From Prochlorococcus sp. AG-347-J20 (GTDB lineage: Bacteria > Cyanobacteriota > Cyanobacteriia > PCC-6307 > Cyanobiaceae), in contig QCBW01000003.1 of assembly GCA_003281485.1 (NCBI GenBank), positions 1 to 64,000 on the forward strand: a DNA stretch of 64,000 nucleotides, in the 5' to 3' direction. The translations under genes were made by a program, and so were the position numbers. Below are positions 2,638 through 8,113 of the stretch, piece by piece (position 1 is the stretch's first letter; every line of letters begins with the position of its first letter). The notes beneath the pieces were generated by a model. The model was not told where the DNA came from. It saw only the letters and a list, made by a program, of their open reading frames with translations, and searched no databases.

Positions 2638-2711
2638 CGGGGCGTGGCGCAGCTTGGTAGCGCGGGTGCTTTGGGAGCACTAGGTCGCAGGTTCGAATCC
2701 TGTCGCCCCGA
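2638..2711 (+). tRNA. tRNA-Pro (anticodon TGG)
   Basis: A complete cloverleaf is visible over 74 nt. The acceptor arms CGGGGCG and CGCCCCG pair fully with discriminator A. The D stem is GCGC/GCGC, the anticodon stem GGTGC/GCACT with loop TTTGGGA (anticodon TGG), and the T arm is GCAGG-TTCGAAT-CCTGT. CCA is not encoded. From base 2662 onward the 3' part is repeated perfectly at 3554-3624, so this gene is the probable integration target of the neighbouring accessory DNA. Confidence 0.96.
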
Positions 2712-2732
2712 TCAGTTATAGCAGTAAGTCTC
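2662..2732 (+). repeat. Attachment-site-like direct repeat, left copy (in tRNA-Pro)
   Basis: These 71 bases cover the 3' two thirds of tRNA-Pro plus 21 bases beyond it. They match 3554-3624 perfectly, and the match continues after one mismatch to 2740/3632. A direct repeat of a tRNA 3' end flanking a short foreign interval is the classical footprint of tyrosine-recombinase integration. Calling it an att site is inference. Confidence 0.75.
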
Positions 2733-2762
2733 AGCTAATAATATATTTAACCTAAAAAGTAG

Positions 2763-2783
2763 AGTGCCCAAAAAGTGCCCAAA
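2763..2783 (+). repeat. Paired 10-bp repeats, possible integrase arm sites (left)
   Basis: AGTGCCCAAA occurs at 2763-2772 and again at 2774-2783, an 11-bp step. The same 10-mer recurs at 3458-3467, preceded 11 bp earlier by the degenerate AGTACCCATA (3447-3456). The pairs therefore bracket the gene at 2808-3434, just inside the long direct repeats, where arm-type recombinase sites would be expected. Confidence 0.45.
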
Positions 2784-2807
2784 TAATTATGAGTTATAAT
2801 TTTGATT

Positions 2808-3434
2808 ATGAAAATATTCCTCAAAAAATTTCAATTTAAATGGTGGAGCTGGGAAATTGATGCAATAAAGATTTTGAACTATTTAATTATTATTCTGGCT
2901 TTCTTGCCCATTCTTCCTTATGAGAAGAAAGATGGGAAATTAATTTCTGTAATGGGTTTTGAAGCTAGAGAGAATAATTTTTATATTCTTGGTGATTTTT
3001 CATTGATGGATACAAATTCTGAGGAAAGGTTAAAATATGAGGTTCAAAAAACAAATAAAGTTCAAGAAAATAATTTAAGTATTTTGGCCGAGATTGGAGA
3101 ATATCTAGAAAAAAATGGAATTGTAAATAATGAAAAATATAAGAACTATCTGGACTCAAAAAATTACAGCGAAGAATTAAAAACCTGTCTTATTTTAAGA
3201 AATATGCTTATGAGTAGTACGGTTGTTGATTCTAAGATAAGAAGAGTTCTCCATGATTATGTACCATCTCCAGTACCTGCTATCTGGGTATTAAGAATAT
3301 TTATTCATTATATTTTGGATTATTTAAGTACTCCTTACTTCACCTCAGAGATGCTTGAGAGAGGTGCCAAAAAATGTAGTGAATTTGAACATCTTTGGCC
3401 ATCAGAAAAATATCTTGATATAACCTTTGAATAA
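2808..3434 (+). CDS. Unknown protein carried between the tRNA-Pro repeats (208 aa)
   Basis: This is the only gene between the two tRNA-Pro repeats. I chose the ATG at 2808; a TTG two codons upstream is possible. The product has one N-terminal hydrophobic segment (about residues 24-36, YLIIILAFLPILPY), then a mainly soluble, charged domain with a helical stretch near residues 75-105 and an aromatic C-terminus with two Cys. I see no recombinase, nuclease, methylase or helix-turn-helix motif and do not recognise the family. Its position suggests mobile-element cargo. Confidence 0.6.
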   Translation: MKIFLKKFQFKWWSWEIDAIKILNYLIIILAFLPILPYEKKDGKLISVMGFEARENNFYILGDFSLMDTNSEERLKYEVQKTNKVQENNLSILAEIGEYLEKNGIVNNEKYKNYLDSKNYSEELKTCLILRNMLMSSTVVDSKIRRVLHDYVPSPVPAIWVLRIFIHYILDYLSTPYFTSEMLERGAKKCSEFEHLWPSEKYLDITFE

Positions 3435-3446
3435 AAAAGTGTAATT

Positions 3447-3467
3447 AGTACCCATAAAGTGCCCAAA
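3447..3467 (+). repeat. Paired 10-bp repeats, possible integrase arm sites (right)
   Basis: AGTACCCATA (3447-3456) and AGTGCCCAAA (3458-3467) have the same 11-bp step as the pair at 2763-2783. Together they frame the 208-residue gene. The right-hand pair has one slightly decayed member. Confidence 0.4.
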
Positions 3468-3553
3468 ATCAAAGATATTAGTACAAATTAGGCCATACCT
3501 ATTTCCGTAAAAATCCTGATATAGCTTTAAGTCTCAATTATAGCCTTGTTTGT

Positions 3554-3624
3554 GCGGGTGCTTTGGGAGCACTAGGTCGCAGGTTCGAATCCTGTCGCCC
3601 CGATCAGTTATAGCAGTAAGTCTC
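3554..3624 (+). repeat. Attachment-site-like direct repeat, right copy (partial tRNA-Pro)
   Basis: This is a perfect 71-bp copy of 2662-2732. It begins inside the D-arm region, so it lacks the acceptor 5' half and cannot be a functional tRNA. It ends the interval that holds the 208-residue gene. Confidence 0.75.
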
Positions 3625-3639
3625 GGCTAATACATATTT

Positions 3640-3675
3640 CACGCAAATTATTGCTTCACGCAAAACTCACGCAAA
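3640..3675 (+). repeat. Three CACGCAAA direct repeats beside the partial tRNA
   Basis: CACGCAAA lies at 3640-3647, 3657-3664 and 3668-3675, with steps of 17 and 11 bp. A decayed version (TTCACGCATAACTCGCAAAAG) follows the decayed tRNA copy at 9748-9812. These look like arm-type recombinase sites of a second, different element, an inference from position and spacing. Confidence 0.4.
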
Positions 3676-3765
3676 AGTTATTTTCTCAAAATAATTGACA
3701 TAACTTTAGGAGATAGTCAGGTATTTGGTTCTGCCCGACTTATGGTGTAACTATCAAGAGGTTTT
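3676..3765 (+). repeat. Island flank repeated near 10306-10398
   Basis: The stretch from AGTTATTTTCTC through GGTATTTGGTTCTGC and GACTTATGGTGTAAC is recognisable again at 10306-10398 with many substitutions. It directly follows the CACGCAAA repeats here, but in the second copy it is separated from them by the DUF805 gene. No gene is visible in it. Confidence 0.5.
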
Positions 3766-3805
3766 CTGTAACCCTTTTTTTATTACTTGGCTTACTAGTT
3801 CTAAA

Positions 3806-4777
3806 TTACCTTCCTATTCTTCCAATAGCCTCAATTGATTTTTTTAAAATTTCTCCTTTCAAGGGAACGAAACCCAAGGCAGGAGCTTTATCTTGGTATT
3901 CATCGCTGAGTAATTTATAGAATGTATCTTGAATTACCTTAGTATTCCTGCCATTACCTTTTTCATAAGCAAGTATCCAAGTTAAGGTTGCTATTGGATA
4001 AGCTCCTTTAGCAGCAGGATTTGGATTTTTACCTGCCAAATTTTCATCTAGATTTATTCCATTTAAAGCTATTGCGCCTGATTCAGTATTGGGGGTAACG
4101 AATTCACCAGAAAGATTTTGAAGTGCAGCAGCCTTAACATTACTTTTAATGTATGATTGGTTTACATAACCAATTGCGCCAGGGGAGTTTTGAATAACAC
4201 CTGCAACACCAGAATTACCTTTAGCACCAACACCTGCCGGCCATTTTACAGACTTACCTGTACCTAATGTCCAGGTTTTTGAAAAAGCTTCCATAGAGTT
4301 TGTGAAAGCTTTAGTTGTACCTGATCCATCAGAACGATGAGTCCAAGTCAATTTCCCTGATTTACAACCTAATTCTTTCCAATCTTTAATCATTCCCATT
4401 GCTACTTGAACAGCTTGTTCTTGTGTTAGTTTCAGGTCGCAATCGTAGTTATATCCAAACGCAATTGTTCCACCAACCATAGGTATTTGAACAAGTCCTC
4501 TAGTAACTTTCTCTATATCAGAATCTTTCATAGGATCATCTGACGCACCAAAATTTACAGTTTCGTCTATGAAAGCTTTTCTTCCAGATCCAGAACCTAC
4601 TGCTTGATAATTAACTCTAGGGCCTCCAGATTTAGCTAAGTCAAAAAACCACCTGGTATAAATTTTCGAAGGAAATGATGCACCAGCTCCACTCAATCTT
4701 TTTGAAGCCATCGCAGATGGAGAAAGTATTAATGAAATTGCAGAAGATAAAATGAGAGTTTTTTTAAAAATACTCAT
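3806..4777 (-). CDS. pstS: Phosphate ABC transporter substrate-binding protein
   Basis: This periplasmic protein binds phosphate and delivers it to the PstCAB importer. The 323 residues start with a Sec signal peptide (cleavage near Met-Ala-Ser, residue 25). They contain the family blocks LSGAGASFPSKIYTRW (about 28-43), VNYQAVGSGSGRKAF, FGASDDPM, WTHRSDGSGTTKAFT and NSGVAGVIQNSPGAIGYV, which hold the phosphate-contacting Ser, Arg, Asp and Thr residues. No pstC, pstA, pstB or phoB is nearby, so this is an isolated island copy, as is common in ocean strains adapted to low phosphate. Family identity is clear. Confidence 0.93.
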   Translation of the reverse strand: MSIFKKTLILSSAISLILSPSAMASKRLSGAGASFPSKIYTRWFFDLAKSGGPRVNYQAVGSGSGRKAFIDETVNFGASDDPMKDSDIEKVTRGLVQIPMVGGTIAFGYNYDCDLKLTQEQAVQVAMGMIKDWKELGCKSGKLTWTHRSDGSGTTKAFTNSMEAFSKTWTLGTGKSVKWPAGVGAKGNSGVAGVIQNSPGAIGYVNQSYIKSNVKAAALQNLSGEFVTPNTESGAIALNGINLDENLAGKNPNPAAKGAYPIATLTWILAYEKGNGRNTKVIQDTFYKLLSDEYQDKAPALGFVPLKGEILKKSIEAIGRIGR

Positions 4778-5071
4778 TAGCCACTTAGATTAAAGACAAT
4801 TTATTTATAGCATCAAACAAAAGACGAAATTTAAAGATTAAGAAATGGAGCAAATTATTTTGATATAATCAATAATTCTTGATATATAACCTAGCCACTC
4901 TTTTAAAACGCTTACTAATTGCATAAAGAAGCTGAGCCTGCATTATTTATTACTTACATCTAGGCTTATTTTTCCAAACAGGTAATTATTAAAAATATCT
5001 TCTACGAGATCTTCTAAAAAATTGGCAGTTTTAATGAAATTTGCTTTTATGAGTGTAGGGTTATTTTTATT

Positions 5072-5197
5072 ATGCAAATCTCATTCTTTGCAAAAGTAGT
5101 TTTGTTTTTAACTCTTTATTGTATTTCTGATTTATCAATTAAAAATAATATTTTGAGAAAGGTAATTAATAGAGCTAATAGAGCTAAAAAAATTTAA
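5072..5197 (+). CDS. Tiny membrane protein with basic tail (41 aa)
   Basis: The product has a single hydrophobic helix (FFAKVVLFLTLYCISDL) followed by a strongly basic tail (RKVINRANRAKK), a typical N-out, C-in one-pass layout. The plan matches the small proteins at 8341-8487 and 8570-8686, although sequence similarity is weak. It ends 12 bases before the next small gene, so the two may be co-transcribed. Family unknown. Confidence 0.45.
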   Translation: MQISFFAKVVLFLTLYCISDLSIKNNILRKVINRANRAKKI

Positions 5198-5209
5198 ACT
5201 TCCCTATTA

Positions 5210-5323
5210 ATGGAATTTTTAACTAATTTTTGGAATAATCAACCCACTACAGTTATGGGAATCGGAGTAGCAATATTTGTATTATTAGGAATTTATATAT
5301 CTTTACTCCAGACATATCAATAA
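5210..5323 (+). CDS. One-helix membrane protein (37 aa) with a decayed paralogue
   Basis: A short amphipathic start (MEFLTNFWNNQP) is followed by one membrane helix (VMGIGVAIFVLLGIYISLL). A paralogue at 10650-10763 aligns without gaps over all 37 residues but has TGA in place of the Trp8 TGG codon. The existence of an alignable paralogue supports this short frame being a real gene. The function is unknown; the size and helix recall small photosystem or membrane-complex subunits, but nothing specific supports that. Confidence 0.6.
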   Translation: MEFLTNFWNNQPTTVMGIGVAIFVLLGIYISLLQTYQ

Positions 5324-5324
5324 A

Positions 5325-5642
5325 TTAGTAAATTATTTTTTTAATTTTTTCTAGATTCCATTTATCAAATATTAATTTCATTTCTCTTTCGTAGTATCTT
5401 ACTTTCTTTGCAAGAGGTAGTTGTTGAATAATTATCCCAAAAGGAAATTTAAAAAAAGAAGAGACATAAACAATATAAAACTCGACAAATGAAGGTTTTG
5501 GCGGGAGAGGTAAATTTTTTATATAAGCCCAATCAATACAAGGTTTTAGTTGCTTATCACTAGCGATAATATTTTTTTTACATCTCCACCAAGAGAATAG
5601 ATAAATGCAAATAAAAATCGGTAACGGAATAAGTCGCAACAT
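5325..5642 (-). CDS. Small membrane-anchored hypothetical protein (105 aa)
   Basis: The protein has an N-terminal hydrophobic helix (about residues 1-17) ending in a WWRCKK stop-transfer, a Pro-rich middle (LPLPPKPS), a second hydrophobic region near residues 52-75, and a charged C-terminus (KVRYYEREMKLIFDKWNLEK). It converges with the one-helix gene, leaving a single base between the two stops. I do not recognise the family. Codon use looks like that of its neighbours. Confidence 0.5.
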   Translation of the reverse strand: MLRLIPLPIFICIYLFSWWRCKKNIIASDKQLKPCIDWAYIKNLPLPPKPSFVEFYIVYVSSFFKFPFGIIIQQLPLAKKVRYYEREMKLIFDKWNLEKIKKIIY

Positions 5643-5727
5643 TAATTAAAAAGGTATTTCTTCAGGGGTTGTTGATTCAAGATAACCAAGCCTTAATTTA
5701 TCTGCGGCGCAAGTAATAAGCGATTCA

Positions 5728-5977: not shown

Positions 5978-6262
5978 TTAATCAGAAATCCAACGATTTA
6001 TTATTGTCCCTTCATAAATATGGCCGGATGCTTCAACTATTGGCTTAGTTTCTGGATTAACAAAGATGTCGTAACAAGTATTTACTGGCCCTTGAAACAT
6101 AACGGTTGCTCTTTTGGGGTCTTCTAATGATTTGCCAATATAAAAAGTTTTTACTCCCATCTCTTTAAACATGGCTTGTTGTTCAGGAGCATTCATATGA
6201 GCTTCATATTCTTCAAAAGTATTACTTAATTTGAAATCTAAAACAGTTGTTTCAATTGACAT
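5978..6262 (-). CDS. DUF3764-like small protein, copy 1
   Basis: The chosen ATG gives MSIETTVLDFKLSNTFEEY, which lines up with the paralogue at 25048-25368 (MVVKTTIIDFQLSNTFEEY). An ATG 12 codons upstream is less likely. The 94-residue product has blocks EMGVKTFYIGKS, DPKRATVMFQGP, ETKPIVEASGHIYEG and ends in RWISD. The size and alternating pattern fit a ferredoxin-like alpha/beta fold such as the dimeric barrels. I assign DUF3764, a picocyanobacterial family, from memory of its pattern. Function unknown. Confidence 0.65.
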   Translation of the reverse strand: MSIETTVLDFKLSNTFEEYEAHMNAPEQQAMFKEMGVKTFYIGKSLEDPKRATVMFQGPVNTCYDIFVNPETKPIVEASGHIYEGTIINRWISD

Positions 6263-6418
6263 AAAAGAAGGACCTAATTGCCCCTTATTGTAGATCAACT
6301 TTCAAATACTAACTATTGGCGATGATAGTAGTAGCGTTTAATCCTTTTGCGCATGCAGTTCCTGAAGTCTTTCTCAAAATAGGAATAATATATTCATAAT
6401 CAAAATCTTTAAAAATAA

Positions 6419-6757
6419 TTAACCTGAGAATCCCATTTTCTGTTCTGCTGCCATTAATGAACCAACAAGCTTATGCTCAGCAACTTTTTCATCATCAGTC
6501 ATAACTGGCTTGATATCAAAATCTATATCAAACTTAACTTTCCAAGGAGCAAAGTGTTCTGTCATTTTTATACCTGCTGAAGCTTGAACAATAATATAAA
6601 CATTATTTGAGTAAGAGGCATGATACCTTCCCAAAACTTTGAATCCTTCAAACTCATCATTCAAAGTTCCATCTTCAACAACCTTTAAAAAAAGATCGTA
6701 AGCTGCACCCATGAGAGCAACATTCTTAAAAGTGGCAGTTACAAAATAAGTATTCAT
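6419..6757 (-). CDS. DUF3303-like small alpha/beta protein, copy 1
   Basis: The 112-residue protein starts with a beta strand (NTYFVTATFKN) and carries the block FEGFKVLGRYHASYSNNVYIIVQA, then APWKVKFDIDFDIKPVMTDDE. The two other members in this window (16093-16365 and 18629-18940) share the strand-helix-GRYH/LNRV-strand-TPVxTDEE order. Together they fit the dimeric alpha/beta barrel family DUF3303. This copy is the most diverged, with an N-terminal strand of TYFVTATF type and a longer C-terminus. No catalytic residues can be named. Confidence 0.6.
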   Translation of the reverse strand: MNTYFVTATFKNVALMGAAYDLFLKVVEDGTLNDEFEGFKVLGRYHASYSNNVYIIVQASAGIKMTEHFAPWKVKFDIDFDIKPVMTDDEKVAEHKLVGSLMAAEQKMGFSG

Positions 6758-7063: not shown

Positions 7064-7318
7064 ATGATTGAAAAAAAAGAAGACAATATTCGAAGCGAAA
7101 GCTTTTACCCAGATAGTAATTTTTATCTTGATCAGGAAAATACCCTTAAAGAGATCCCACTTTCAAAAGATCAAATATCCAATTCTTCTAAATTTGAATG
7201 GCCAAATAGCTATTGGTTTATTGCCGAAAGGACTAATGGCAGACTTGCAATGATTGGATTTATGGCTGTGATTATTAACTACACTTTATTTGGTTGGATA
7301 GCATATCCATTTCTTTAA
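7064..7318 (+). CDS. High-light-inducible protein (Hli), extended N-terminus
   Basis: Hli proteins are one-helix members of the chlorophyll a/b-binding superfamily that sit in thylakoids and protect photosystems under light stress. Here 84 residues include the diagnostic helix AERTNGRLAMIGFMAVIINY (about residues 54-73), with Glu/Arg and Asn/His-type pigment ligands, followed by LFGWI. The first 45 residues are a charged extension, longer than in the 42-residue Hli at 30943-31071. The next gene starts immediately at the stop (TAA-ATG), so translation is probably coupled. Confidence 0.88.
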   Translation: MIEKKEDNIRSESFYPDSNFYLDQENTLKEIPLSKDQISNSSKFEWPNSYWFIAERTNGRLAMIGFMAVIINYTLFGWIAYPFL

Positions 7319-7546
7319 ATGAGTAATTTAAATTTTGATAAAGATGGAGTTGATAGTTCTGGAGTCCACTGGCTTCAATATGCTGCATTTGTTATAACTG
7401 CATTCGGTATTTATTTTGGTTGGGCTTTTTTAAATGATGCTAATTTTCATCACTTTTCTGTAAAAATATTTAAGTTCTTAAATTGCAATGGATATAACCC
7501 TTTGAGTTATTGCATAATACGTTGGAAAGTAGATTTTTATCCTTAA
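7319..7546 (+). CDS. Small membrane protein coupled to the Hli gene
   Basis: The ATG follows the Hli stop codon with no gap, which argues for an operon. The first 45 residues look like a complete one-helix protein: an acidic start (NFDKDGVDSSGVHW), a helix (LQYAAFVITAFGIYFGWAFL) and a short DANFHH tail. The last 30 residues are Cys- and aromatic-rich, lack features, and overlap the convergent gene by 4 bases. They look like read-through past a lost stop codon. Function unknown, but the context suggests thylakoid membranes. Confidence 0.55.
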   Translation: MSNLNFDKDGVDSSGVHWLQYAAFVITAFGIYFGWAFLNDANFHHFSVKIFKFLNCNGYNPLSYCIIRWKVDFYP

Positions 7547-7791
7547 AAATAATTTCTAAAGATAGATGTTTTCTTCCATCCCTCCTCTAAAAGTTGTTTA
7601 TATTCTTTCCTTGCTTTCTCAAGGCTTTCCACTCTACTTCCCTTCATAACTGGTTTGCTACTTCTCTTATAAACACATCCATAACTAATCATCATTGCAT
7701 CTATAGAAGGAGAAGGTTTAGATACATCCTCAAATGGTTCAAATACTTTTATCCTACTCCTATCTTTATTTATGAGAGTAAATTTCTCCAT
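7543..7791 (-). CDS. DUF1651-like small protein
   Basis: The 82-residue protein has a beta-rich N-terminus (EKFTLINKDRSRIKVFEPF), a KPVMKGSRVES block and the C-terminal signature ARKEYKQLLEEGWKKT, the Ala-Arg/Leu/Gly-Trp ending I associate with DUF1651 of picocyanobacteria. A broken close relative is at 19234-19464; more distant relatives are at 13681-13938 and 30008-30277. Its start overlaps the stop of the upstream gene (TAATG), indicating translational coupling with 7791-8042. Function unknown. Confidence 0.6.
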   Translation of the reverse strand: MEKFTLINKDRSRIKVFEPFEDVSKPSPSIDAMMISYGCVYKRSSKPVMKGSRVESLEKARKEYKQLLEEGWKKTSIFRNYF

Positions 7792-8042
7792 TAATTACCT
7801 TTAGATAAGAGATAATTTAAAAAGATACCTCCAAAAACTAATAACCCTCCTATAGCTAAAAATATAAATAAATCAATTAATGATTTATCTTTATTTATTT
7901 GTAGAAAAGTTAAAGTAAAAGATATTGGAGGGAATAATAATATTGCTTTTGGAATAAGTGCCTTATTCCATTTCTTTATATCAGTATCTTTTTCGTTTAG
8001 TTCCTGATACATACTTACTAACTTTTCTCTCTCTTCTCCCAT
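7791..8042 (-). CDS. Two-helix membrane protein (83 aa)
   Basis: I chose the ATG at 8042, which overlaps the stop of a preceding tiny frame (TAATG), over a TTG six codons upstream. The N-terminal 30 residues are charged and helical (MGEEREKLVSMYQELNEKD), followed by two hydrophobic helices (about residues 33-48 and 57-78). The stop codon shares a base with the ATG of the DUF1651-like gene. The chain of TAATG overlaps implies one polycistronic message. The family is not recognised. Confidence 0.5.
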   Translation of the reverse strand: MGEEREKLVSMYQELNEKDTDIKKWNKALIPKAILLFPPISFTLTFLQINKDKSLIDLFIFLAIGGLLVFGGIFLNYLLSKGN

Positions 8043-8113
8043 TAAATAAGTAAAATGCAAACAATTGTTCCAATACTAAAAATTAAGCTCCACCCCTGCG
8101 AGTTAATAGTCAT
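8042..8113 (-). CDS. Very small hydrophobic peptide (23 aa) in an overlap chain
   Basis: The peptide (MTINSQGWSLIFSIGTIVCI and a short tail) is essentially one membrane helix. Its stop overlaps the next ATG as TAATG, the same junction used between the next two genes. That arrangement is the main argument that it is translated. It could act as a small membrane peptide or only as a leader that couples translation. Confidence 0.35.
   Translation of the reverse strand: MTINSQGWSLIFSIGTIVCILLI

Follow-up and report, generated by a model that had tools for sequence, protein, structure and literature searches.

Integron cassettes are small units that lie arrayed in one orientation, carry attC sites and are served by the integrase IntI. 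In Prochlorococcus, repeats of the 3' end of tRNA-Pro have reportedly been seen in a genomic island. The tycheposons of this genus are described, in the passages that cite them, as elements of 4–200 kb with a recombinase (Hackl et al. 2023, as cited in PMC10872708 and PMC11389934), and nitrate assimilation is named among their functions in Prochlorococcus in one of those passages (PMC10872708). CIMEs are defined in the text cited here as having no integration or transfer genes while keeping attL and attR (PMC5704250). A passage on Dehalococcoides reports 15 ssrA-GIs without an integration module, the ssrA islands using a serine recombinase (PMC3146451). Flexible genomic islands composed of tRNA-inserted cassettes with tRNA-end repeats are likewise outlined for Ca. 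Actinomarinales (PMC7771536) and for fGI-2 of Ca. Methylopumilus (PMC10872708).

The window analysed here is the whole 64,000-nt stretch at positions 1–64,000 of contig QCBW01000003.1 from Prochlorococcus sp. AG-347-J20 (GCA_003281485.1). An 892-bp unit, which we call cassette 1, sits in its tRNA-Pro (Table 1). The original prediction of a 71-bp perfect direct repeat starting within tRNA-Pro was verified, and this repeat is nested in an 88-nt repeat (95%). The 821 bp between the copies were correctly said to hold a single 208-residue gene, P0001; otherwise there is only an overlapping frame of 64 aa. Word pairs with an 11-bp step had been proposed at both ends. On the left, AGTGCCCAAA is exact at 2763 and 2774; on the right it is present at 3458, but its partner at 3447 is degenerate (AGTACCCATA, an 8/10 match). 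The exact 11-bp-step GTGCCC pair occurs once in the 64-kb window, at 2764. A scan of 266 genus genomes with one mismatch allowed listed the paired pattern 85 times, spread over 50 of them, and the backward-read control 0 times, indicating that the pairs are more than chance. Just outside the right repeat we found a second word that the prediction did not mention, namely TTCACGCAAA at 3638 and 3655 and CTCACGCAAA at 3666.

Table 1. Features of cassettes 1 and 2 in the window.
Feature	Position	Strand	Remarks
Intact tRNA-Pro (TGG), attachment gene	2638..2711	+	ARAGORN
att copy 1	2662..2732	+	46-bp core 2666-2711, anticodon arm to tRNA 3' end
Conserved left tail of cassette 1, type A (TCAGTTATAGCAGTAAGTCTCAGCTAATA)	2712..2740	+	Type A left end in 49/172 cassettes
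Left word pair, AGTGCCCAAA twice, 11-bp step	2763..2783	+	GTGCCC pair starts at core start + 98 bp
P0001, sole cargo gene, 208 aa	2808..3434	+	No convincing match in database searches
Right word pair, AGTACCCATA and AGTGCCCAAA	3447..3467	+	About 110 bp ahead of next core
Conserved right end, type R1 (TATAGCTTTAAGTCTCAATTATAGCCTTGTTTGTGCGG)	3520..3557	+	Combined with type A left end in 29/172 cassettes
att copy 2	3554..3624	+	46-bp core 3558-3603; shared boundary that closes cassette 1 and opens cassette 2
Cassette 2, eroded, pstS-like cargo	3558..4956	+	93.2% identity to stretches of two genomes
Words of cassette 2, ACGCAAA class	3638..3675	+	17- and 11-bp steps
323-aa ORF, pstS-like by eye, cargo of cassette 2	3806..4777	-	

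Cassette 1 shares with tycheposons the host genus and the insertion into a tRNA gene with repetition of its 3' part, and full elements at such sites likewise have a tyrosine recombinase. Unlike tycheposons, it comprises one gene, has no tyrosine recombinase and falls short of the 4–200 kb size. Its structure agrees with the definition of a CIME. It encodes no phage-satellite packaging or capsid-redirecting genes, the sole gene having no significant match in PHROGs or Pfam.

P0001 also gave no convincing match in PADLOC, NCBIfam or PDB, its structure model was poor (pLDDT 51), and searches of phage records and viral contigs, within their sensitivity, detected no relatives. More than 100 weak matches (about 31% over residues 31–136) mostly indicate a different short protein and were set aside. 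Full-length relatives were found in 8/266 genus genomes including the window's own, the others being 97, 78, 62, 61, 61, 60 and 30% identical. Six of these eight genomes (the window's own, G009, G149, G082, G006 and G258) have the gene between tRNA-Pro cores, with words of the GTGCCCA class at one end or both; no such cassette ends were found at the gene in G035 and G107. The cassettes of the window, G009, G082 and G258 are compact (inner lengths of 846, 1149, 837 and 1137 bp), and those of G149 and G006 are larger (2534 and 2784 bp).

The copy of cassette 1 in the array of G009 is 97.6% identical over 777 bp, whereas the five other stretches of at least 300 bp shared by the window and G009 in the compared DNA are 69.1, 77.2, 82.6, 83.3 and 84.0% identical. 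The ORF adjoining the tRNA is the 77.2% stretch, and a 199-bp stretch with the tRNA is 86% identical. This difference shows that the cassette was transferred recently, and it bears out the original description of the interval as foreign and mobile. Nor does every relative carry the interval at the same site, since full-length relatives of its gene are confined to the eight genomes. That cassette 1 is a real and mobile unit, which has moved between genomes, is well supported by these sequence comparisons. The interval had also been said to lack a recombinase of its own, and P0001 indeed gives no recombinase match. The comparison of loci that the prediction had called for yielded no clean empty site, with 20 further regions fetched and the single-core loci L347, L088, L348 and L349 inspected. 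At L347 and L088 an intact tRNA is followed by an eroded cassette left end with words, the L348 contig stops about 2 kb further on, and the core of L349 lies outside any intact tRNA.

Arrays of tRNA-Pro (TGG) 3' fragments are common in the genus. An 81-bp att sequence was matched in 242/266 genomes, with few candidates scored per genome. We analysed 28 regions, comprising 27 relatives, most of them selected because they had the gene or matched att well, and the first 20 kb of the window. They contain the 46-bp core 201 times, partial copies (at least 16 aligned bases) included, at 0–13 per region; with the regions oriented by majority, all copies lie in one orientation and 0 in the opposite one. 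Six of the regions come from one-contig genomes (G001, G012, G019, G023, G043 and G044), which argues against assembly artefacts. A first set of 131 cassettes had inner lengths of 390–5052 bp (median 1499), and a wider set comprised 172 cassettes of 250 bp to 30 kb. Nine of the 172 contain a full-length integrase ORF and 163 have no recognised integrase, although one of the latter, in G258, contains a 60-residue integrase fragment. When ORFs of 60 aa and longer were counted mechanically in 155 small cassettes, 69 had one and 108 had one or two. Nucleotide clustering gave 156 clusters, 14 of them multi-member, and in 0/14 did members share a labelled neighbour. One cluster of 98% identical cassettes occupies positions 2, 6 and 1 of the fetched arrays of three genomes, and a 16-kb cassette cluster is at position 1 in both of its genomes. 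Soon after the tRNA, type B left ends (e.g. L035 2458) have a hairpin and then a T-run in 66 of 89 cases, as if each type B cassette brought a terminator for tRNA-Pro.

The window itself holds part of such an array. Positions 3554–4956 match G208 and G023 at 93.2% over 1,405 and 1,376 bp, with the left end, words and pstS-like gene included, so the island in the window consists of at least two cassettes. No right core of cassette 2 was found in the window after the shared part, beyond which the pstS-like cassette continues differently in G023 and G208 (L082 7519–9118 and L072); these are hybrid cassettes, probably fused after core loss. Further along, window positions 4800–5650 and 5978–6757 match array loci of other genomes at 96% at best, and positions 7064–8060 at about 84%. 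The island could extend beyond two cassettes.

Most cassettes have such repeated words at their ends. In 105 of 131, the two ends of the cassette have an 8-mer in common that contains three or more G/C, compared with 12% of mismatched pairs from other loci (permutations 0/2000); in the other 26 the ends are unmatched. Tandem 7-mers peak at an 11-bp step (90/172 left and 83/172 right ends), and steps of 11 and 12 together account for 113/172 left and 105/172 right ends against 5/172 cassette centres. Where the words are of the window's class, the left pair begins 98 bp past the core start in all eight exact cases, and the right pair lies 108–111 bp before the next core in 9/9. Exact copies of a listed word are present at the left end of 68 of the 163 integrase-less cassettes and at the right end of 63, and 43 have the same word at both ends; reversed words gave 2 and 0 of 172, and centres 1/172. 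Counted at either end of these cassettes, the window's word is present in 14/163 and the neighbouring cassette's TCACGCAAA in 12/163, followed by TCCCTCAAA (11), GTGGACAAA (10), GATGTCAA (9), GCCGTCAAA (8) and GCACCCAAA (7). Repeated words, at fixed spacing and flanking the core on both sides, are a feature expected of a lambda-type integrase substrate, and this arrangement favours the earlier likening of the words to arm-type sites. One cassette with the window's word, L237 (G103:C33), contains a 65-residue piece of an integrase, 77% identical to L154.

One alternative, which we consider unlikely, holds that cassette 1 is a cis-mobilizable remnant of a larger tRNA-Pro element that lost its integrase, and that the 892-bp unit moves, if ever, only together with a neighbouring full element. 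The interval does have no integrase, tandem CIMEs at tRNA or ssrA genes are known, the same arrays include integrase-bearing intervals of 4.7–23.6 kb, and L237 combines the same word with an integrase fragment. Against this, P0001 and this word class occur together in tRNA-Pro cassettes in five further genomes, three of which (G009, G082 and G258) have the compact form; with protein identities of 57–97% across the five, these small cassettes form a lineage of long standing. Different labelled neighbours also flank the members of shared clusters. Because P0001 recurs in this way, in compact form in three genomes, and 163/172 cassettes are integrase-less, the original suggestion of an element that lost its integrase has lost ground. 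This cargo-only unit, 892 bp long and without an integrase, is no isolated oddity and belongs to a genus-wide pool of cassettes.

We regard as improbable a second alternative, in which ordinary homologous recombination between tRNA cores and conserved ends shuffles the cassettes and the words are fossils. The hybrid ends of the pstS-like cassette in G023 and G208 fit such shuffling, as do the 26 of 131 cassettes that mismatch themselves. Drift, however, would erase words that remain paired at the fixed offsets described above, and a full-length integrase reading frame persists in 9/172 units.

These integrases are candidate helpers. In the larger intervals, the integrase gene starts 113–239 bp before the right core. 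The 7.2-kb interval of G016 has the same left- and right-end families as cassette 1 but the word TTCCCTCAAA, together with a VapE-like gene, and the 16.4-kb interval of G043 encodes an MFS transporter, a molybdopterin oxidoreductase, MoeA and a nitrite/sulphite reductase, a gene set that looks like nitrate assimilation and recalls tycheposons. Relatives of the G016 integrase (E 1e-10 or better) occur in 76/266 genus genomes. We examined 78 integrase ORFs in the genus, of which 47 were non-redundant once near-duplicates had been removed. A tRNA-Pro core lies just upstream in 44 of these 47, and in 24 (L176 being doubtful) a tandem pair (8 bases or longer) with an 11- or 12-bp step stands between core and integrase gene. 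Thirteen have their best repeat at a 10-bp step, of the GTGCAGTCT kind, which may be something else, and a few have no clear pair. Many different word pairs are found beside integrases, and several recur in integrase-less cassettes. With like word pairs bordering integrase genes at tRNA-Pro cores, the proposal that cassette 1 was integrated with help from elsewhere is probably right.

The search for an integrase with the same arm word had a divided outcome. Neither the window's word nor TCACGCAAA is found beside any of the 78 genus integrase genes examined, and no member of the integrase family was found in the window's genome (94% complete). Sampling 400 genomes across the family yielded 84 with integrases at E 1e-40 or better; a detailed look at 29 such loci revealed a tRNA-Pro core in 24, and four loci in two other genera (L369; L375, L376 and L382) combine the GTGCCCA word pair with a tRNA-Pro core. 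A further integrase, L385, has the word GTGCCCAAAA of the GTGCCCA class in a stretch without a tRNA-Pro core, where another tRNA end is seen by eye; word and core target seem to evolve separately.

It is very improbable that every cassette is moved, in the manner of IntI in integrons, by a resident chromosomal recombinase, for example the 389-aa PF00589 protein (G000:C2:23355-23777, L002). This protein is the sole PF00589 match in the window's genome, and frames of 389 aa recur among the matches listed for the genus, in which 140 of 147 genomes have some PF00589 match. One conserved protein, however, does not account for many different words, several of which match those of the mobile integrase family. 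Separately, integrases of 462–470 aa lie directly upstream of an intact tRNA-Pro at no fewer than 16 loci (L155, L159-L172 and L174). Seven genomes were checked, six with such an integrase and G209 with one of 407 aa. In G119, G130 and G209 (L399, L403 and L404) there are two, two and three intact tRNA-Pro copies, and the other four genomes have only one in the fetched stretch. In the first three the arrangement resembles an element that brings a complete tRNA with it, and we did not accept these proteins as an integron-like resident integrase.

Residues R247, K272, R356, H357, H379 and Y388 (G016 numbering) are kept in 28/28 aligned integrases, which fits the tyrosine-recombinase pattern. The integrase model (pLDDT 87.6) has an N-terminus predicted to fold as a helix, three strands and a helix, and in a PDB search XerA ranked first and full-length lambda integrase ranked 3–5, with modest TM-scores of about 0.4. 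Arm sites are recognised, according to the text cited, by variable arm-binding domains at the N-terminus (PMC8138268). When the rest of the protein was allowed for, N-terminal similarity correlated with the word (partial r 0.245, 4/5000, n=24), as it did in a larger set (partial r 0.239, 1/5000, n=48). The rest of the integrase tracks the word as well (partial r 0.178, 19/5000), so the separation of the N-terminus is modest. The best example is L148 and L149, which have GCCGACAA(A) in common and are 86% identical in the N-terminal part and 69% elsewhere, whereas L148 and L152 have different words and are 41% and 72% identical, respectively. L390 and L314 form a counter-case, with a common word and 24% N-terminal identity. 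This covariation suggests that the N-terminal domain may read the words.

Nine viral contigs match 35 bases of the tRNA core exactly, and seven of them have a tblastn match to the integrase family (L310 and L313 partial). At L311, L312, L314, L315 and L316 the integrase adjoins the core, and like words stand on both sides of it in an attP-like arrangement. L312 also encodes matches to a minor tail protein, an Erf-like annealing protein and an SSB, and so looks like a temperate phage. Searched at the protein level with the G016 integrase, viral contigs and phage records had yielded no relatives; because the DNA pattern search did find some in viral contigs, negatives of the protein search carry little weight. 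With the integrase and attP-like words together in viral contigs, phages could deliver the integrase.

Cassette 1 directly displays a discrete unit with conserved ends, paired words at fixed distances and tRNA core bounds. The explanation that we consider probable overall is that it is a mobile cassette, bounded by tRNA-Pro cores, that can be moved in trans by a word-matched lambda-type integrase; the sequence patterns strongly suggest mobilisation by such integrases. Read as arm-type sites, the words would be recognised by the integrase N-terminal domain, and an integrase with a matching arm-binding domain could mobilise the cassette in trans. Strand exchange would take place in the tRNA core, and the cassette would move once a matching integrase arrived on another element or phage. 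Each insertion would rebuild tRNA-Pro and displace earlier cassettes outward, giving rise to arrays.

Such arrays resemble several described systems. As in CIMEs and the Dehalococcoides ssrA islands, tandem units are bounded by RNA-gene repeats and many have no integration genes; the ssrA islands differ in using a serine recombinase, and unit-specific paired words go unmentioned in the passages cited above. Additive flexible genomic islands similarly place gene cassettes at tRNA genes, but those passages describe neither arm sites nor a helper integrase family. With integrons the arrays share small cassettes in a single orientation; where integron cassettes have attC, the boundaries here are tRNA-Pro cores, the associated integrases are arm-binding-like, with a predicted N-terminal sheet domain as in lambda Int, and do not stand at the array head, and cassettes outnumber integrases. 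No sign of integron parts came up in the analyses described here. The most fitting name for the unit is a cargo-only tRNA-Pro cassette with arm-site words, acting like an integron cassette and a trans-mobilised CIME. We recognised no description of cassette-specific arm words in the literature searched, which excluded the original tycheposon paper, and do not claim them to be unpublished.

More broadly, we see an even chance that picocyanobacteria maintain an integron-like cassette economy on a tRNA gene, in which very small units with cargo alone would bear the arm word as an exchangeable address choosing the lambda-type integrase of a tycheposon or temperate phage, and core and address would evolve separately, so that many independent sub-networks share one site. 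The cassettes offer a testable mechanism for the gain and loss of single genes, such as the pstS-like phosphate gene, in Prochlorococcus islands, even though most cassettes have no recombinase. If the word is an address, sequence would predict which integrase moves which cassette.
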